Position numbers and translations under genes: made by a program
In this document: positions 20,256 to 27,052 of the stretch, in pieces
Layout of the letters: each line of letters begins with the position of its first letter
Numbering within the stretch: position 1 is the stretch's first letter
Source of the DNA: Bradyrhizobium sp. SK17
GTDB lineage: Bacteria; Pseudomonadota; Alphaproteobacteria; Rhizobiales; Xanthobacteraceae
DNA: 64,000 nucleotides
Direction of reading: 5' to 3'
Assembly (NCBI RefSeq): GCF_002831585.1
Contig: NZ_CP025113.1
Span: 3,983,001 to 4,047,000 of the forward strand
Notes under the pieces: model-generated
Told to the model about the DNA's origin: nothing
What the model saw: the letters and a program-made list of their open reading frames with translations, nothing else
Database searches by the model: none

Positions 20256-20270
20256 GAACATATCATGAAC
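20256..20270. promoter_or_regulatory. LexA (SOS) box, GAAC-N7-GAAC
   Basis: GAAC (20256-20259), ATATCAT, GAAC (20267-20270): an exact match to the alphaproteobacterial LexA motif (GTTC-N7-GTTC read on the other strand). It lies 72 bp upstream of imuA and 170 bp upstream of the divergent udgX-like gene. LexA control of imuA-imuB-dnaE2 is established in Caulobacter and other alphaproteobacteria. Confidence 0.9.
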
Positions 20271-20341: not shown

Positions 20342-21136
20342 ATGAACGGCGCACGCACGGGTACGCTTGCGTCTCTGCGCGGCAGCATCGCGCGCATCGA
20401 GGCGTCATCGGAGGCGGCGATGCCGAGCCGCGTTGCGCTCGGTCACAGCGGCGCCGACGCGATGCTGCGCGGCGGGCTTGCACCGGCTGCGCTGCACGAG
20501 GTGTTCGCGGCCGGCCATCAAAGTGGCGCGGCGACCGGCTTCATCGCGGGGCTCGCCGGACGGCTATCGGCGCGCAAGCCGCTGGTGTGGGTGCGGCAGG
20601 ATTTTTCCGACCGCGAGAACGGCGCGCTGTCGATGCGCGGGCTTGCCGAGCTCGGCCTCGATCCGCGCCTGCTGGTCACGGTGCGCGCCGCCGATGTCGA
20701 TGGCGCCCTGCGCACTGCGGCCGATGCGCTGGCCTGCGATGCGCTCGGCGCTGTGGTGCTCGAGGTCTGGGGCGAGGCGCGCCAGCTCGATCTCGTCGCC
20801 AGCCGCAAATTGACGCTTGCGTCGCAGGCTGCCGGCGTCACCGCGCTGGTGCTGCGGATCGCGGCGACGCCGATCCCCTCGACCGCGGAGACGCGCTGGA
20901 TCGTGCGCGCGGCGCATTCGCCGCCCGGCCATGCGGCCTCCGCCTGGGGCGCGCCGCGCTTCGATGCCGAACTCGTGCGCAATCGTCATGGCCCGGTCGG
21001 GCGATGGATCATGGAATGGAAATGTGATGAGTGCCAGTTCAGTGAACCGTCGGCGAATTCTCAGCCTGTGGCTGCCACGCCTGCCCATCGACCGCATCAA
21101 GCGCAAGCTCGCGCAGGAAATCGCCTCGCAAGCTGA
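20342..21136 (+). CDS. imuA: ImuA, RecA-like mutasome component
   Basis: A 264-residue protein of the ImuA (SulA/RecA-like) family, the first gene of the SOS mutagenesis cassette. It shows the partial RecA fold (PLVWVRQDFSDRENGALSMR, GAVVLEVWGEARQLDL) and the family's C-terminal RWIMEWKCDECQF segment. ATG 20342 has AAGGAG nine bases upstream. The last 110 bp overlap the start of imuB in another frame, so the two are translationally coupled. Known partners are ImuB, which binds the beta clamp, and the polymerase DnaE2; together they carry out error-prone bypass after DNA damage. Regulated by the SOS box upstream. Confidence 0.92.
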   Translation: MNGARTGTLASLRGSIARIEASSEAAMPSRVALGHSGADAMLRGGLAPAALHEVFAAGHQSGAATGFIAGLAGRLSARKPLVWVRQDFSDRENGALSMRGLAELGLDPRLLVTVRAADVDGALRTAADALACDALGAVVLEVWGEARQLDLVASRKLTLASQAAGVTALVLRIAATPIPSTAETRWIVRAAHSPPGHAASAWGAPRFDAELVRNRHGPVGRWIMEWKCDECQFSEPSANSQPVAATPAHRPHQAQARAGNRLAS

Positions 21137-22807
21137 TGCGCGGGAGGTGGCTGAACCTTCAAGTGAGGCGAGCACATCGGCAGGGCTCTCTCCCCCTTGC
21201 GGGGGAGAGTTGGAGAAAGGGGGACCACAGACGCCGGCGTACATGGCTTACCCCTCTCCCTAACCCTCCCCCACAAGGGGGGAGGGAACCCGTCCGCTCA
21301 TGCGTCCCTTACGAAGAGCAACGAACTCCCCAGCGTCGTGGTCGCAAAAGACCACAACGCCATCCTGCTGCATGCCGTCGACGAGGCCGCGGTGCGGGCC
21401 GGGCTGTCGATCGGGCTGCCGCTCGCCAATGCGCGTGCGATCTGTCCCGAGCTCACCGTCTACGACGCCGATCCCGCGGCCGACCTGAAGACGTTGAACG
21501 ACATCGCCGACTGGTGCGATCGCTTCACACCGTTGGTGGCGCTCGACGCGCCTGATGGCCTGTTCCTCGACATCACCGGCTGCGCGCATCTGTTCGGCGG
21601 CGAGCGCGCGCTGCTGCAGGTCGTGACCGGCGCGCTGAGCCGGCGCGGCTTTGCCGTCAGCGCGGCGATTGCCGGCACCTCGATCGCGGCGCGCACGCTG
21701 ACGCGCCATGTCTCGGGCAAGATCGTTGCCGATGGCGCGGAGGCGCACGCGGTCGGCCCGTTGCCAGTCTCCGCGCTCGGCGCCGATCCTGCCATCACCA
21801 CCGGCCTGCGCCGCGCCGGCCTGAAGACCATCGGCGATGTCGCCGCGCGCGCCCCGCACGAGATCTCGGCACGGTTCGGTTCGGCCTTCACCACCCTGCT
21901 CGGCCACGCGCTCGGACAGGGCGATGCTCCGATCAGCCCACGCAAGCCGCTGCCCGATTACATCGTCGAGAAGCGTTTCCCCGAGCCGGTCGTAACCGAT
22001 ACCGTGATCGCGCCGACGCTCTCGAGCCTCGCCAAAATGCTGGTCGCCGCTATGGACAAGCAAGGCAAGGGCGCCCGGCAACTGGAAGCGAGCTTCTTCC
22101 GCACCGACGGCAAGGTCGCGGCGATCATGGTCGAGACCGGGCGTCCGGTGACGCGGCCGGAAATGATCGACCGCCTGTTCCGCGAACGGCTCGATGCGCT
22201 CAACGATCCGCTCGATCCCGGCTTCGGCTTCGATCTCATCCGCCTCGCCGCAGGGCGTACCGAGATCGTGGTGCAGCAGCAGCGCGATCTCGACGCCACG
22301 GTGCACGACAATGACGAGATATCGGCGCTGATCGATCGCATCGCCGCCCGTATCGGCGGCAAACGCGTCGTCGTGCATCTGCCGCTCGAGAGCCACATCC
22401 CCGAGCGCGCGACGCTCGCACTGCCGGCGCAGCATCATCTGGCCGCCGCCAGTGCCGCCGCCTGGCCGGAGCGCGTCACGGGCGAGCCGCCGCTACGGCC
22501 ACTCAGGCTGTTCGAGCGGCCCGAGCCGATCAAGGTGCCATTCGCGAGCGTGCCGGACGGTCCGCCGCACCAGTTCACCTGGCGGCGCGCCTTGCATGCG
22601 GTGGTGCGGGTCGAGGGGCCCGAGCGGATCGCGATGGAATGGTGGAAGCAGGACGGCGCGTCGCTGACCCGCGATTACTTCCGGGTCGAGGATGCCGAGG
22701 GCCAGCGCTTCTGGATCTTTCGCGACGGTCTGTACGAAAGCGAGCTGCGCGACGAGGCGGGTAAACCCGTTCCGGCAAACTGGTATATGCACGGGCTGTT
22801 CGCATGA
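21027..22807 (+). pseudogene. imuB: imuB, reading frame broken by a palindromic repeat
   Basis: ImuB is a Y-family-like protein without polymerase activity that links ImuA and DnaE2 to the beta clamp. The frame from ATG 21027 gives a genuine ImuB N-terminus (RRRILSLWLPRLPIDRIKRK) but reads into a repeat and stops at TAA 21261-21263. The rest of the protein (VVVAKDHNAILLHAVDEAA onward, through FLDITGCAHLFGGE to the C-terminal WRRALHAVVRVEGPERI and NWYMHGLFA) continues in a different frame to 22807, with no defect of its own. The shift falls inside the 109-bp repeat. Either the gene is inactive, a sequencing indel is present, or two polypeptides are made. The 3' end overlaps dnaE2 by ATGA. Confidence 0.85.
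21184..21292. repeat. 109-bp palindromic repeat inside imuB (copy 1)
   Basis: Left half CTCTCTCCCCCTTGCGGGGG plus AGAGTTGGAGAAAGGGG; right half CCCCTCTCCCTAACCCTCCC plus CCACAAGGGGGGAGGGAACC. The halves pair imperfectly, and each has its own smaller CCCCCTTGCGGGGG-like hairpin. A second copy with the same arms and a different 20-odd-base centre lies in dnaE2. On the coding strand it presents TAA (21261-21263) in the imuB frame. Confidence 0.92.
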
Positions 22808-23130
22808 AGGCGCCAGTCACAGACTATGCCGAGATCGGCATCACCAGCAATTTCTCCTTCCTGCGTGGCGGCTCCGATCCGCGCGCCTATGTGCATCAGG
22901 CGAGCGAACTCGGGATTCCCGTGATCGGGATCGCCGATCACAACACGCTGGCCGGCGTGGTGCGCGCCTGGAAGGAGCTCGACAGCGAGAAGGTCGCCCA
23001 TCCGCCCAAGTTCCTGGTCGGCGCCCGCATCGTCTTCATCGACGGCACGCCCGACATCCTGGTCTATCCGCGCGACCGCGCCGCCTATGGCCGGCTGTGC
23101 CAGCTCTTGACCCGCGGCAAGCGCGGCGGC

Positions 23131-23198
23131 GGCAGAGCGTTTTCCAGCGAAGTGGACACCGGTTCGCGTGAAGAAAACGCGTCAACACAAAAATCCGA
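23131..23198. repeat. in-frame repeat insertion within dnaE2 PHP region
   Basis: A segment with GCGTTTTC (23138-23145) and GAAAACGC (23172-23179) arms, encoding [15 protein letters not shown], is inserted between LTRGKRGGG and the [12 protein letters not shown] strand. The same DNA element is a familiar intergenic repeat in Bradyrhizobium and Rhodopseudomonas. Here it keeps the frame open and adds about 25 residues to DnaE2. Confidence 0.75.
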
Positions 23199-25440
23199 GC
23201 GCGTCGAGAAGGGCGACTGCCGGCTCACCTTGCCTGATCTCGTCGATTTCGCCGAAGGTCAGCTTTTGGTGCTGGCGCTGCCGCATCGTTTCGAGACCGA
23301 TGACGCGCTCGACGTGCTCGCTCAATTGAAGGCGAGCGCTGCCGATGGCGTCTGGCTCGCCGCGAGCCTGCTTTATCGCGGCGACGACAGGCGCCGCCTC
23401 GCACGGCTGCATGGCCTCGCCACCGAAGCGGGCGTACCGCTGCTCGCCACCAACGAGGTGCTCTATCACCATCCCGCGCGCCGTCCGTTGCAGGACGTGC
23501 TGACCTGTATCCGCGAAAAGACCACCATTGAGGCGGTCGGCCGCCGGCTTGAAGCCAACGCCGAGCGGCATCTCAAGCCGGCGCATGAAATGGCAAGGCT
23601 GTTCCGCGACTGGCCAGCCGCCATCGCGGAAACCATGCGCTTCGCCGCGCGCATCTCATTCTCGCTCGACCAGCTCAAATACCAGTATCCCGACGAGCCG
23701 GTGCCGCCGGGCAAGACCGCGCAGCGTCATTTGGAGGATTTGACCTGGAGGGGAGCGCACCGAAAATTTCCAACTCGGATTTCGCCTAAACTCAAGAAGA
23801 CCTTGCACAAGGAATTGCGTCTCATCAGGAAGCTGAAATACGCACATTACTTCCTCACCGTGCACGACATCGTGCACTATGCGCGCAGCCAGAACATCCT
23901 GTGCCAGGGCCGCGGCTCGGCGGCGAACTCGGCAGTCTGTTATGTGCTCGGCGTTACCTCGGTCGATCCGACCAAGGTCGATCTCTTGTTCGAGCGCTTC
24001 ATCTCCAAGGAGCGGCTGGAGCCGCCCGACATCGACGTCGATTTCGAGCATTCGCGGCGCGAGGAGGTGATGCAATATGTCTACCGCCGCTATGGCCGGC
24101 ATCGCGCAGCGATCATCGCGACCGTGATCCATTATCGTCCGCGCAGCGCGATCCGCGACGTCGGCAAGGCGCTCGGGCTGACCGAGGATGTCACCGCGGC
24201 GCTCGCCGACACCGTGTGGGGCAGCTGGGGCAAGGGCCTCAACGACATGCAGGTGCGGCAGGCCGGGCTCGATCCGAAAAACGCGATGATCACTCTCGCG
24301 GTCGAGCTCGCCACCGAGCTGATCGAGTTTCCGCGCCATCTCTCGCAGCATGTCGGCGGCTATGTGCTGACCCAGGACCGGCTCGACACCTATGTGCCGA
24401 TCGGCAACGCCGCGATGGACGACCGCACCTTCATCGAATGGGACAAGGACGACGTCGACGCGCTGCACATGATGAAGGTCGACGTGCTCGCATTGGGCAT
24501 GCTGACCTGCATCCGCAAATGTTTCGACCTGATCGATGACCACAAGGGCAAGCGCTGGGAGCTCGCCTCGGTCCCGCCGGACGACGAGAAGGTCTACGAC
24601 ATGCTGTGCCGCGGGGAATCGCTCGGCGTGTTCCAGGTCGAGAGCCGGGCGCAGATGAACATGCTGCCGCGCCTGAAGCCGCGCACCTTCTACGATCTCG
24701 TCATCGAGGTCGCGATCGTGCGCCCCGGGCCGATCCAGGGCGACATGGTGCATCCCTATCTGCGGCGGCGCAACAAGCAGGAGCAGGTGAGCTATCCGTC
24801 GCCGGCATCTGACAAGGGCGACAAGAACGAACTCTACAACGTCCTGCACAAGACGCTCGGCGTGCCGCTGTTCCAGGAGCAGGCGATGCGGATCGCGATC
24901 GAGGCGGCGCATTTCACCTCGGAGGAGGCCAACGGCCTGCGGCGTTCGATGGCGACCTTCCGCAACCTCGGCACCATCGGCAGCTATGAGGAGAAGCTGG
25001 TCGGCAACATGGTAGCGCGCGGCTACGATCCGGATTTCGCCCGCAGCTGCTTCGACCAGATCAAGGGTTTCGGCTCCTACGGCTTTCCGGAAAGCCATGC
25101 CGCGAGCTTCGCCCAGCTCGTCTACATCTCGTCATGGCTGAAGCATTATCATCCCGATGCGTTCTGCTGCGGCCTGCTCAACTCGCAGCCGATGGGTTTC
25201 TATGCCCCGGCGCAGATCGTCGGCGACGCCCGCCACAACGGCGTCACGGTGCGCGAGGTCGACGTCTCCTTCAGCTTTGCGCAGAACACGCTGGAGGAGA
25301 AGGTCGGTGATCACTGCGCGGTCCGGCTCGGCTTCCGCCAGATCGACGGCTTTCACTGGCTCGATGAGGACGAGGAGCGGTTGAAACGAATGCAGCAGAC
25401 GCTGCGCAGTACAGGTGAGTCAGGGGGGCACGAACGGGTG

Positions 25441-25548
25441 GGCTCTCTCCCCCTTGCGGGGGAGAGTTGGAGAGAGGGGCAAGCCACGACCACCGCCCGT
25501 GCGGCTTACCCCTCTCCCTAACCCTCCCCCGCAAGGGGGGGGAACCCG
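25441..25548. repeat. 108-bp palindromic repeat inside dnaE2 (copy 2)
   Basis: Same family as the imuB copy: left half CTCTCTCCCCCTTGCGGGGG plus AGAGTTGGAGAGAGGGG, right half CCCCTCTCCCTAACCCTCCC plus CCGCAAGGGGGGGGAACCC. It differs in its central ~22 bases and near the right end (8 G run instead of GGGGGGAGGG). The length is divisible by three, so the frame is kept, but it brings TAA at 25519-25521. Confidence 0.92.
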
Positions 25549-26406
25549 CCCACCTCCCGCGCGGCCTTGGACAGAAATGAGCTCGACTGGGCCGACCGCA
25601 TCGTCGCGGCGCGCAACCGCCGGCCCTTCACCTCGCTGGAGGAGTTCGCCCGCGACACCGCTCTCCCCAAGCGCGCGCTGATCCTGCTCGCCGACGCCGA
25701 TGCGTTCCGCTCGCTCGGGCTCGACCGCCGCGAGGCGCTGTGGGCGGTGCGGCGGCTGCCTGACGACGTGCCGCTGCCGCTGTTCGAGGCTGCCACCGCG
25801 CGCGAGCAGCCGGATGAAGGCACAAAACCATTGCCGGAGATGCCGCGCCCCGAGCAGGTGGTCGCCGACTACCAGACCATCCGTCTGTCGCTGAAGGGCC
25901 ACCCGATGGAATTCCTGCGCGAGATGTTCACCAAAGAACGCGTCGTCGCCTGCCACACCATCAACCGCCGCAACGACCGCCGCCGCGTCCGTTGCGCCGG
26001 CGTCGTGCTGGTGCGGCAGCGGCCGGGCAGCGCCAAGGGCGTGGTGTTCATGACGCTGGAGGACGAGACCGGCATCGCCAACATCGTGGTGTGGCCGAAG
26101 GTGATGGAGCAGTACCGCAAGGAGGTGATGGGCGCCCGCCTGATCCTGGTCGAGGGCTATATCCAGAGCAGCCCGGAGGGTGTCACGCATCTGGTGGCGC
26201 AGCGCATGACCGACCGCTCCCACGATCTGATCGGCCTCGCCAATGAATCTCCTGTCAGCAAGCACCCGGTGCCCGCGGGTCCCGCGCTGATCGAGCCGCT
26301 CAACGACGACCGCCGCGATCACGGCGACAACTCGCCGCAGAAGATCCGTCATCCCCGCAACGTCCGCATCCTGCCGCCGTCGCGGGACTTTCATTGAGGG
26401 ATACAC

Positions 26407-26443
26407 GAATCGTAGGGCGGATTAGCCGAAGGCGTAATCCGCC
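26407..26443. repeat. REP element flanking the RAYT gene (left)
   Basis: A 37-bp sequence starting GAATCGTAGGGCGGATTAGC with inner dyad GGCGGATTA/TAATCCGCC around GCCGAAGGC. It is identical, in opposite orientation, to 27016-27052, and lies 10 bp after the dnaE2 stop. Confidence 0.92.
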
Positions 26444-26468
26444 GCTCAGTTCAACCAATGTGAAGCTC

Positions 26469-27002
26469 ATGCCGAATTATCGTCGCGCATTCATCCCCGG
26501 TGGCTGTTGGTTCTTCACGGTAAACCTGCTGGACCAACGATAAACCCTGCTCGTTGATTACATTGCGGAATTGCGCAGCGCCGTTGAGGCGACGCGTCGG
26601 GACTATTCCTTTACAATCGACGCATTCGTTGTCCTGCCCGATCATTTGCACGCGATCTGGACCTTGCCACCAGGCGATGCCGATTTCTCCACGCGCTGGC
26701 GGCTGGTCAAGAACCGTTTCGCAAGAGTGCTTCCAAAGCACGAACAGCTCAGCGACGTTCGTATCTCTCGCAACGAACGCGGAATCTGGCAACGTCGGTT
26801 CTGGGAACACCTGATACGCGATGAGGCCGATTACGCGCGTCATATTGAGTACTGCTACATTAATCCGTTGAAGCATCGGCATGTCGCACGGGTATGCGAT
26901 TGGCCACATTCTTCGTTTCATCGCGACGTGCGCGCAGGATTGTTCCCGGGCGACTGGGGTGGTGACGTCGCGCTGAGCAGCGACTTCGGCGAACGACAAT
27001 GA
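26469..27002 (+). pseudogene. REP-associated tyrosine transposase (RAYT) with one nonsense codon
   Basis: A Y1/IS200-like transposase of about 177 codons. MPNYRRAFIPGGCWFFTVNL starts at ATG 26469, TAA occupies codon 25 (26541-26543), and the same frame resumes through to 27002. Catalytic elements are intact downstream: the HUH motif in LPDHLHAIWTLP and the tyrosine region HIEYCYINPLKHRHV. A single C-to-T change (CAA to TAA) would account for the stop. An in-frame restart after the stop would lack the conserved N-terminal strand. The gene is flanked by two inverted 37-bp REP copies, the arrangement by which such enzymes recognise and spread REPs. Confidence 0.88.
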
Positions 27003-27015
27003 TCCCCGAGGGAAT

Positions 27016-27052
27016 GGCGGATTACGCCTTCGGCTAATCCGCCCTACGATTC
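27016..27052. repeat. REP element flanking the RAYT gene (right)
   Basis: Exact reverse complement of the 37 bp at 26407-26443, beginning 14 bp after the transposase stop. Each copy can fold into a hairpin, and the pair encloses the whole transposase gene. Confidence 0.92.

Follow-up and report, generated by a model that had tools for sequence, protein, structure and literature searches.

Palindromic repeats of several families as probable in-frame, replaceable linkers in imuB and dnaE2 of Bradyrhizobium and its relatives

The imuA, imuB and dnaE2 genes follow one another head to tail, spanning roughly 20342-26397 of the 64,000-nucleotide stretch of Bradyrhizobium sp. SK17 DNA analyzed here (contig NZ_CP025113.1, positions 3,983,001 to 4,047,000, forward strand; hereafter the window), in a genome of 8.29 Mb on two contigs. 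A first-pass annotation of this DNA had reported that imuB and dnaE2 each contain a copy of one repeat in like orientation, with both frames ending at a common TAA, and the two copies and the common stop are indeed present. Comparison with relatives indicates that this repeat, a palindrome of ~110 bases that we call F1, is one of several families found at the same two loops, and that such repeats are very probably inherited, in-frame linkers that have been recurrently replaced. The features of the locus are as follows.

20256..20270, minus strand: LexA-box-like word GTTC-N7-GTTC, 5′ of imuA; the sole match in the window, with 1.39 expected by chance
20342..21136, plus strand: imuA, open frame (ATG start chosen in the analysis); weak NCBIfam ImuA match, 32.5 bits against a cutoff of 150
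21027..21263, plus strand: imuB 5′ piece, 78 aa, ending at the repeat TAA; LWLPRLPIDR motif common to relatives
~21178-21292, plus strand: F1 repeat in the imuB loop; hairpin of -60.7 kcal/mol, z -5.3
21264..22807, plus strand: imuB 3′ piece, in a frame different from the 5′ piece; Pfam IMS and IMS_C; mechanical open reading frame from TTG 21197
22804..25521, plus strand: dnaE2 5′ piece, 905 aa, ending at the repeat TAA; PHP, DNA_pol3_alpha and finger domains; NCBIfam NF004225 error-prone polymerase, 1284 bits
~23134-23193, plus strand: F5 repeat in dnaE2, intact and in frame; 38 of 42 distinct alleles of that stretch are without it
~25435-25548, plus strand: F1 repeat in the dnaE2 loop; hairpin of -77.3 kcal/mol, z -8.5
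25522..26397, plus strand: dnaE2 3′ piece, keeping the frame of the 5′ piece; Pfam HHH_6 and tRNA_anti-codon (HhH, OB fold); mechanical open reading frame from TTG 25567

By domain scans, the break in imuB precedes the Y-family core, and that in dnaE2 separates the polymerase core from the HhH/OB part; the 78 residues of the imuB 5′ piece gave no Pfam match. For the comparison, imuB-dnaE2 sequences came from 40 genomes of the genus together with 79 named loci (the assemblies partly overlap), and the stretch between conserved anchors was compared at each site; counts include this genome, and identical stretches are counted once. The imuB site was readable in 115 of 120 loci, the other 5 having no 5′ match, and yielded 104 distinct alleles, 100 of which are in frame without a stop. 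At the dnaE2 site, readable in 111 loci and dropped in 9, 94 of 96 distinct alleles are open, and many insert lengths at both sites are divisible by three. Broken imuB sites are those of this genome, of G253 (one base gained inside its own repeat), of G174 (partly N) and of a poor metagenome-assembled genome, which together with this genome also accounts for the broken dnaE2 sites. The metagenome-assembled locus (L083) was left out of the tree described below, and L121, which is masked, counts as broken at imuB with no family there. In the G253 locus (L114), the additional base lies in a repeat family different from F1, and dnaE2 is open.

Family sorting relied on word patterns, with two dnaE2 alleles assigned by eye. 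A recognizable repeat is present in 51 of the 104 imuB alleles and 77 of the 96 dnaE2 alleles (own alleles included). Where both sites were read (93 distinct pairs), both are filled in 47, one in 28 and none in 18. The loops of relatives hold at least five palindromic repeat families in frame, and in many cases the intervening peptide is plainly a translated repeat; F5 also occurs at the ImuB loop of other lineages. The other types are distinguished as follows.

F1 insert peptide: ends ...LPRKGGGNP
F2 insert peptide: LPLPLAGEGWGGG...PPPQAGEAK
F3 insert peptide: SFRGAR...PESI...PRND
F4 insert peptide: SPQRGEVD...GAQVPRE
F6, a sixth type: Nitrobacter and other non-Bradyrhizobium loci

Genome-wide searches with F1, F2, F3 and F5, in which a palindrome can match on both strands, gave 95 matches for F1 and 40 for F5 in this genome, and 58 for F2 and 78 for F3 in G259. 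The F2, F3 and F5 searches scored 40 candidates each, and all 40 scored F5 candidates match (86 candidates in all). Read by eye in seven alleles, the F3 repeats have CGTCATTCCGG at or near their start and its complement at their end, and a CGTC tag was seen in them. Three properties expected of intragenic repeats of the repetitive extragenic palindrome (REP) or Rickettsia palindromic element (RPE) type are found here: the repeats are palindromic and dispersed in many genome copies, they sit within a conserved gene for which empty sites are seen among relatives, and the host frame is kept open in relatives and by the F5 and ligase copies of this genome (the latter described below), but not by its two F1 copies as written.

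Turnover at the two sites was evaluated on a quick tree built from dnaE2 flanks with the insert excluded (94 of 96 dnaE2 alleles). The fewest family changes amount to 32 at the dnaE2 site and 31 at the imuB site, and well-supported branches alone force 15 changes for F3 and 8 for F1 at the dnaE2 site. Among open alleles of like family, the ratio of nonsynonymous to synonymous polymorphism (pN/pS) is 0.64-0.90 within the inserts compared to 0.13-0.25 in the following 100 codons. Because the ratio approaches neutrality in the inserts and is low in the flanks, the peptide seems hardly to matter, whereas the frame does; the insert peptides would be nearly neutral, with selection retaining mainly the frame. 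The genus survey, the existence of empty sites and the near neutrality of the inserts all give good support to the suggestion in the first-pass annotation that insertion is biased towards permissive loops, as in Rickettsia.

Of the two F1 copies of this genome, the imuB copy is the best other genome match of the dnaE2 copy (86% over 108 bases), and both upstream frames stop at CCCTCTCCCTAA (21252-21263 and 25510-25521), a word with 2 occurrences in the window and 0 in 100 shuffles. The same TAA word is present in other F1-bearing alleles (12 of 19 at imuB and 14 of 19 at dnaE2), out of frame in all 26, and on this comparison of alleles the TAA is part of the F1 repeat itself. The nearest relative (locus L110, genome G126) has F1 in the same orientation and in frame at both the imuB and dnaE2 sites. 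Given the F1 repeats at both sites of this closest genome, inheritance is the most likely origin of the two copies here, and not acquisition by each gene in this genome as the first-pass annotation had supposed; fresh independent insertions were rejected because L110 and others match in family, site and orientation. The C-run of the first arm is five bases long in both F1 copies here, compared to six in all 14 of the relatives' imuB alleles that allow comparison and mostly six in their dnaE2 F1 alleles (four in two alleles, eight in one). In addition, the dnaE2 copy has two bases fewer at the last G-run than its closest relatives. Because the C-run is one base shorter in both copies, the repeat TAA falls in frame; with the two bases lost at the last G-run, the dnaE2 frame is restored past the repeat with one TAA between, whereas imuB is out of frame after its stop. 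Read in this way, the stop is a consequence of small length changes within the repeats, and not of insertion itself.

Several observations weigh against a history of frame-keeping replacement. The imuB site is empty in about half of the alleles, and frame keeping is not absolute, the imuB gene of G253 being broken too. The relatives' dnaE2 C-runs of four and eight bases leave their frames open. With 26 of 91 inner tree branches unresolved, some family changes may be tree errors, and some may reflect allele exchange between strains. The pN/pS values derive from open alleles and related rows only, and palindromic structure may constrain silent sites. Structure models were poor (predicted template modeling scores of 0.28 for ImuB and 0.40 for the DnaE2 piece), with the inserts appearing as low-confidence coil, and we infer translation of the inserts from open frames. 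We favor a scheme in which two permissive loops, located near the ImuB N-terminus and between the DnaE2 polymerase core and the HhH/OB part, repeatedly receive dispersed REP-like palindromes of several families, which displace each other there. The in-frame repeats of relatives should be translated as near-neutral linkers, and at the sequence level selection retains the open-frame alleles. F1 has a stop-bearing frame, such that a length change in its homopolymer arms truncates the host gene, and both inherited F1 copies here carry such changes as written.

The age of the two breaks is constrained by the flanking sequence. The ratio of nonsynonymous to synonymous substitution (dN/dS) for imuB against nine relatives is 0.07-0.13, compared to 0.08-0.12 between intact relatives; for dnaE2 the values are 0.06-0.12 versus 0.08-0.11 without the patch at 23740-23890, and 0.10-0.16 versus 0.08-0.12 with it. 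Old decay was rejected, given that imuB, and dnaE2 minus the divergent patch, resemble intact relatives, and the argument from intact flanks in the first-pass annotation holds; any loss would be recent because the flanks show purifying selection. In a comparison with 119 other loci and with 360 proteins from databases, the patch itself (window 23740-23890) is shared with P0121 only, and looks as if exchanged with a distant dnaE2. P0121, from a 13-kb ENA contig, matches this DnaE2 without a difference across 867 residues and is open through its insert, and P0241, also open through the insert, is 100% identical over the 87 residues before it. Since so similar a DnaE2 exists in intact form, the breaks must either have arisen very recently or be sequence errors in a hairpin-homopolymer repeat. 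The first-pass annotation had accepted that open frames in a high-quality assembly of the same strain would overturn its case: P0121 comes close to this for DnaE2, although it differs at several residues just past the insert, may be another strain's, and is silent on imuB.

Real break and sequence error stand at about even odds, and we consider the reality of the breaks in the strain slightly doubtful. We give an even chance to the explanation that both are assembly or base-calling errors and that the strain has a normal ImuB and DnaE2 with in-frame repeats, an outcome that would call for a C-run undercalled twice in one hairpin context and a collapsed G-run, the errors perhaps having escaped correction because short reads map ambiguously in a dispersed hairpin repeat. 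Beyond the open frames of P0121 and P0241, this is supported by the best 120 of 5864 proteins listed, which include no separate DnaE2 C-terminal piece at 97% identity or above and only partial open ones, bearing in mind that 90% clusters could hide some. Runs of six or more C or G over 264 kb number 11 here and 24 in G126; of 10 cleanly aligned six-base runs of G126, 6 are shorter here and none the reverse, with the runs in question making up 3 of the 6. A run of N in the imuB insert of G174 points in the same direction. However, frame-break flags are not in excess, being raised in 38 of 150 genes here and 43 of 150 in G126 (in both genomes, judged by eye and without a tally, many of these flags mark upstream extensions or shadow frames), and runs of six to eight bases are called elsewhere, including inside long open frames. 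At window 47342, in a hairpin-like intergenic stretch examined by eye, another C-run is one base short compared to three relatives.

A recent, strain-specific loss of the mutasome, in which the two repeats underwent genuine slippage or hairpin-templated mutation and possibly conversion between them, is nearly as plausible. It would account for the identical shortened run in both copies, and it accords with the purifying selection on the flanks, the strong hairpins, the variable run length among relatives' dnaE2 copies and the G253 break within another repeat. Against this, at least two to three events would be required in a very short time, given that a neighbor identical over 867 residues is open, and conversion is indistinguishable where the first arm is alike in both genes of relatives. 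Six-base runs are short for slippage, and the pattern that recalls phase-variable genes, with near-identical proteins open and this genome broken, could equally be sequence error. We regard as scarcely credible the further idea that bypass, frameshifting or splitting at the hairpins allows the broken frames to yield functional protein all the same. The hairpins are very stable and dnaE2 has a single stop before resuming in frame; yet two mechanisms would be needed, a frame change in imuB and stop readthrough in dnaE2, and by eye imuB is without a slippery heptamer of the usual form. Frames of relatives are plainly open through like hairpins, and the RNA bypass or two-piece proteins raised in the first-pass annotation found no support.

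If the breaks are real, ImuB would stop at residue 78 or have to restart downstream, DnaE2 would be without its HhH/OB part, and SOS mutagenesis via this mutasome would probably have been lost in the strain very recently. The proposed loss of SOS mutagenesis is in keeping with frames that are broken as written and follows only if they are broken in the living strain. A spare mutasome copy was also sought: no second close copy of imuB or dnaE2 was found in the genome, and the idea was rejected because the next matches are just 26% (ImuB) and 32% (DnaE2) identical. The SOS box cited in the first-pass annotation corresponds to the GTTC-N7-GTTC word listed above, presumably the alphaproteobacterial SOS box; the word does stand 5′ of imuA, with its chance expectation in the window exceeding one.

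Other copies of the two families were placed by gene calls made from codon use alone, which would score a copy in a repeat-split gene as extragenic. F1 has 29 other places in this genome, and 27 of them fall outside called genes. Of the remaining two, one was flagged as intragenic but rejected, two minus-strand genes casting a shadow frame there; the other is within a gene for an ATP-dependent DNA ligase of the cisplatin damage response family (TIGR04120, 808 bits, cutoff 400), the frame of which is open through its F1 insert. Among relatives with both flanks, from 27 genomes searched (own copy and L223, which misses its 5′ part, excluded), the ligase site is empty in 9 of 26 and filled in 17, each time by a stop-free insert whose length is divisible by three; an F1-type insert lies in frame in the cisplatin damage response DNA ligase at L172 5875-6060. 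Of the 39 other F5 copies listed, 20 were examined and every one is outside called genes, the intragenic one being that in dnaE2, in frame. Thus, 52 copies of two families were examined and four are intragenic: two in dnaE2, one in imuB and one in the cisplatin-response ligase. All four lie in damage-response genes, in a sample that is small and post hoc. We consider it highly improbable that damage-response genes of Bradyrhizobium are preferred landing pads for mobile palindromes, perhaps by being transcribed, and single-stranded, at times of damage-induced repeat movement, with the homopolymer arms serving as a slippage switch by which both partners of the error-prone mutasome go off and on together.

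Directly 3′ of dnaE2, at window 26407-27052, lies a gene for a REP-associated tyrosine transposase (RAYT). The inverted repeats on its two sides are 37 bases long and perfect, contain GTAG and read differently from F1.

26469..27002, plus strand: RAYT gene with one in-frame stop; NCBIfam NF047646, 151 bits against a cutoff of 80, piece 26571-26999

The gene is open at the corresponding place in G215, and no RAYT was found in window-sized stretches of G126 and G259.

On the reading of these repeats as inherited, replaceable linkers, an apparent double gene loss becomes a clear case of bacteria absorbing mobile palindromes into their proteins, in which the loops are constant, the families many, the peptide near neutral and the frame kept. 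Database ImuB proteins (P0001, P0008, P0017 and similar ones) often begin inside or after the repeat; at the P0017 locus the upstream frame is open, and such N-termini may be mis-annotated. Because database ImuB is so often started there, repeat-bearing genes appear easily mis-annotated.

REPs with GTAG and CGTC tags have already been described inside genes (Di Nocera 2013, PMC3733652). In the portion of that paper available to us, replication and repair genes are stressed, DnaE2, other repair genes and DNA ligase are named as hosts, tolerant loops are proposed, and differing REPs are reported at approximately one recB site in two Xanthomonas species. Our findings sharpen the question it raises of why intragenic REPs cluster in replication and repair genes. 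That same portion does not describe ImuB as a host, genus-wide family replacement at one loop, a neutrality test or frame breaks within repeats; our literature search did not find these either, with the paper's list of intragenic repeats (Additional file 3), which may hold some, lying outside that search. The ImuA-ImuB-DnaE2 mutasome is matched here in its gene order imuA-imuB-dnaE2 and in its Y-family and C-family domains, and differs in that the imuB and dnaE2 frames are both broken as written. Like the REPs of PMC3733652, as far as the available text describes them, the repeats are small dispersed palindromes, often inverted dimers, inside coding frames, and F3, running from CGTCATTCCGG to its complement, fits the CGTC-tagged REPs. 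By the description in that text, they also resemble RPEs, which likewise stand in frame within genes for functional proteins.

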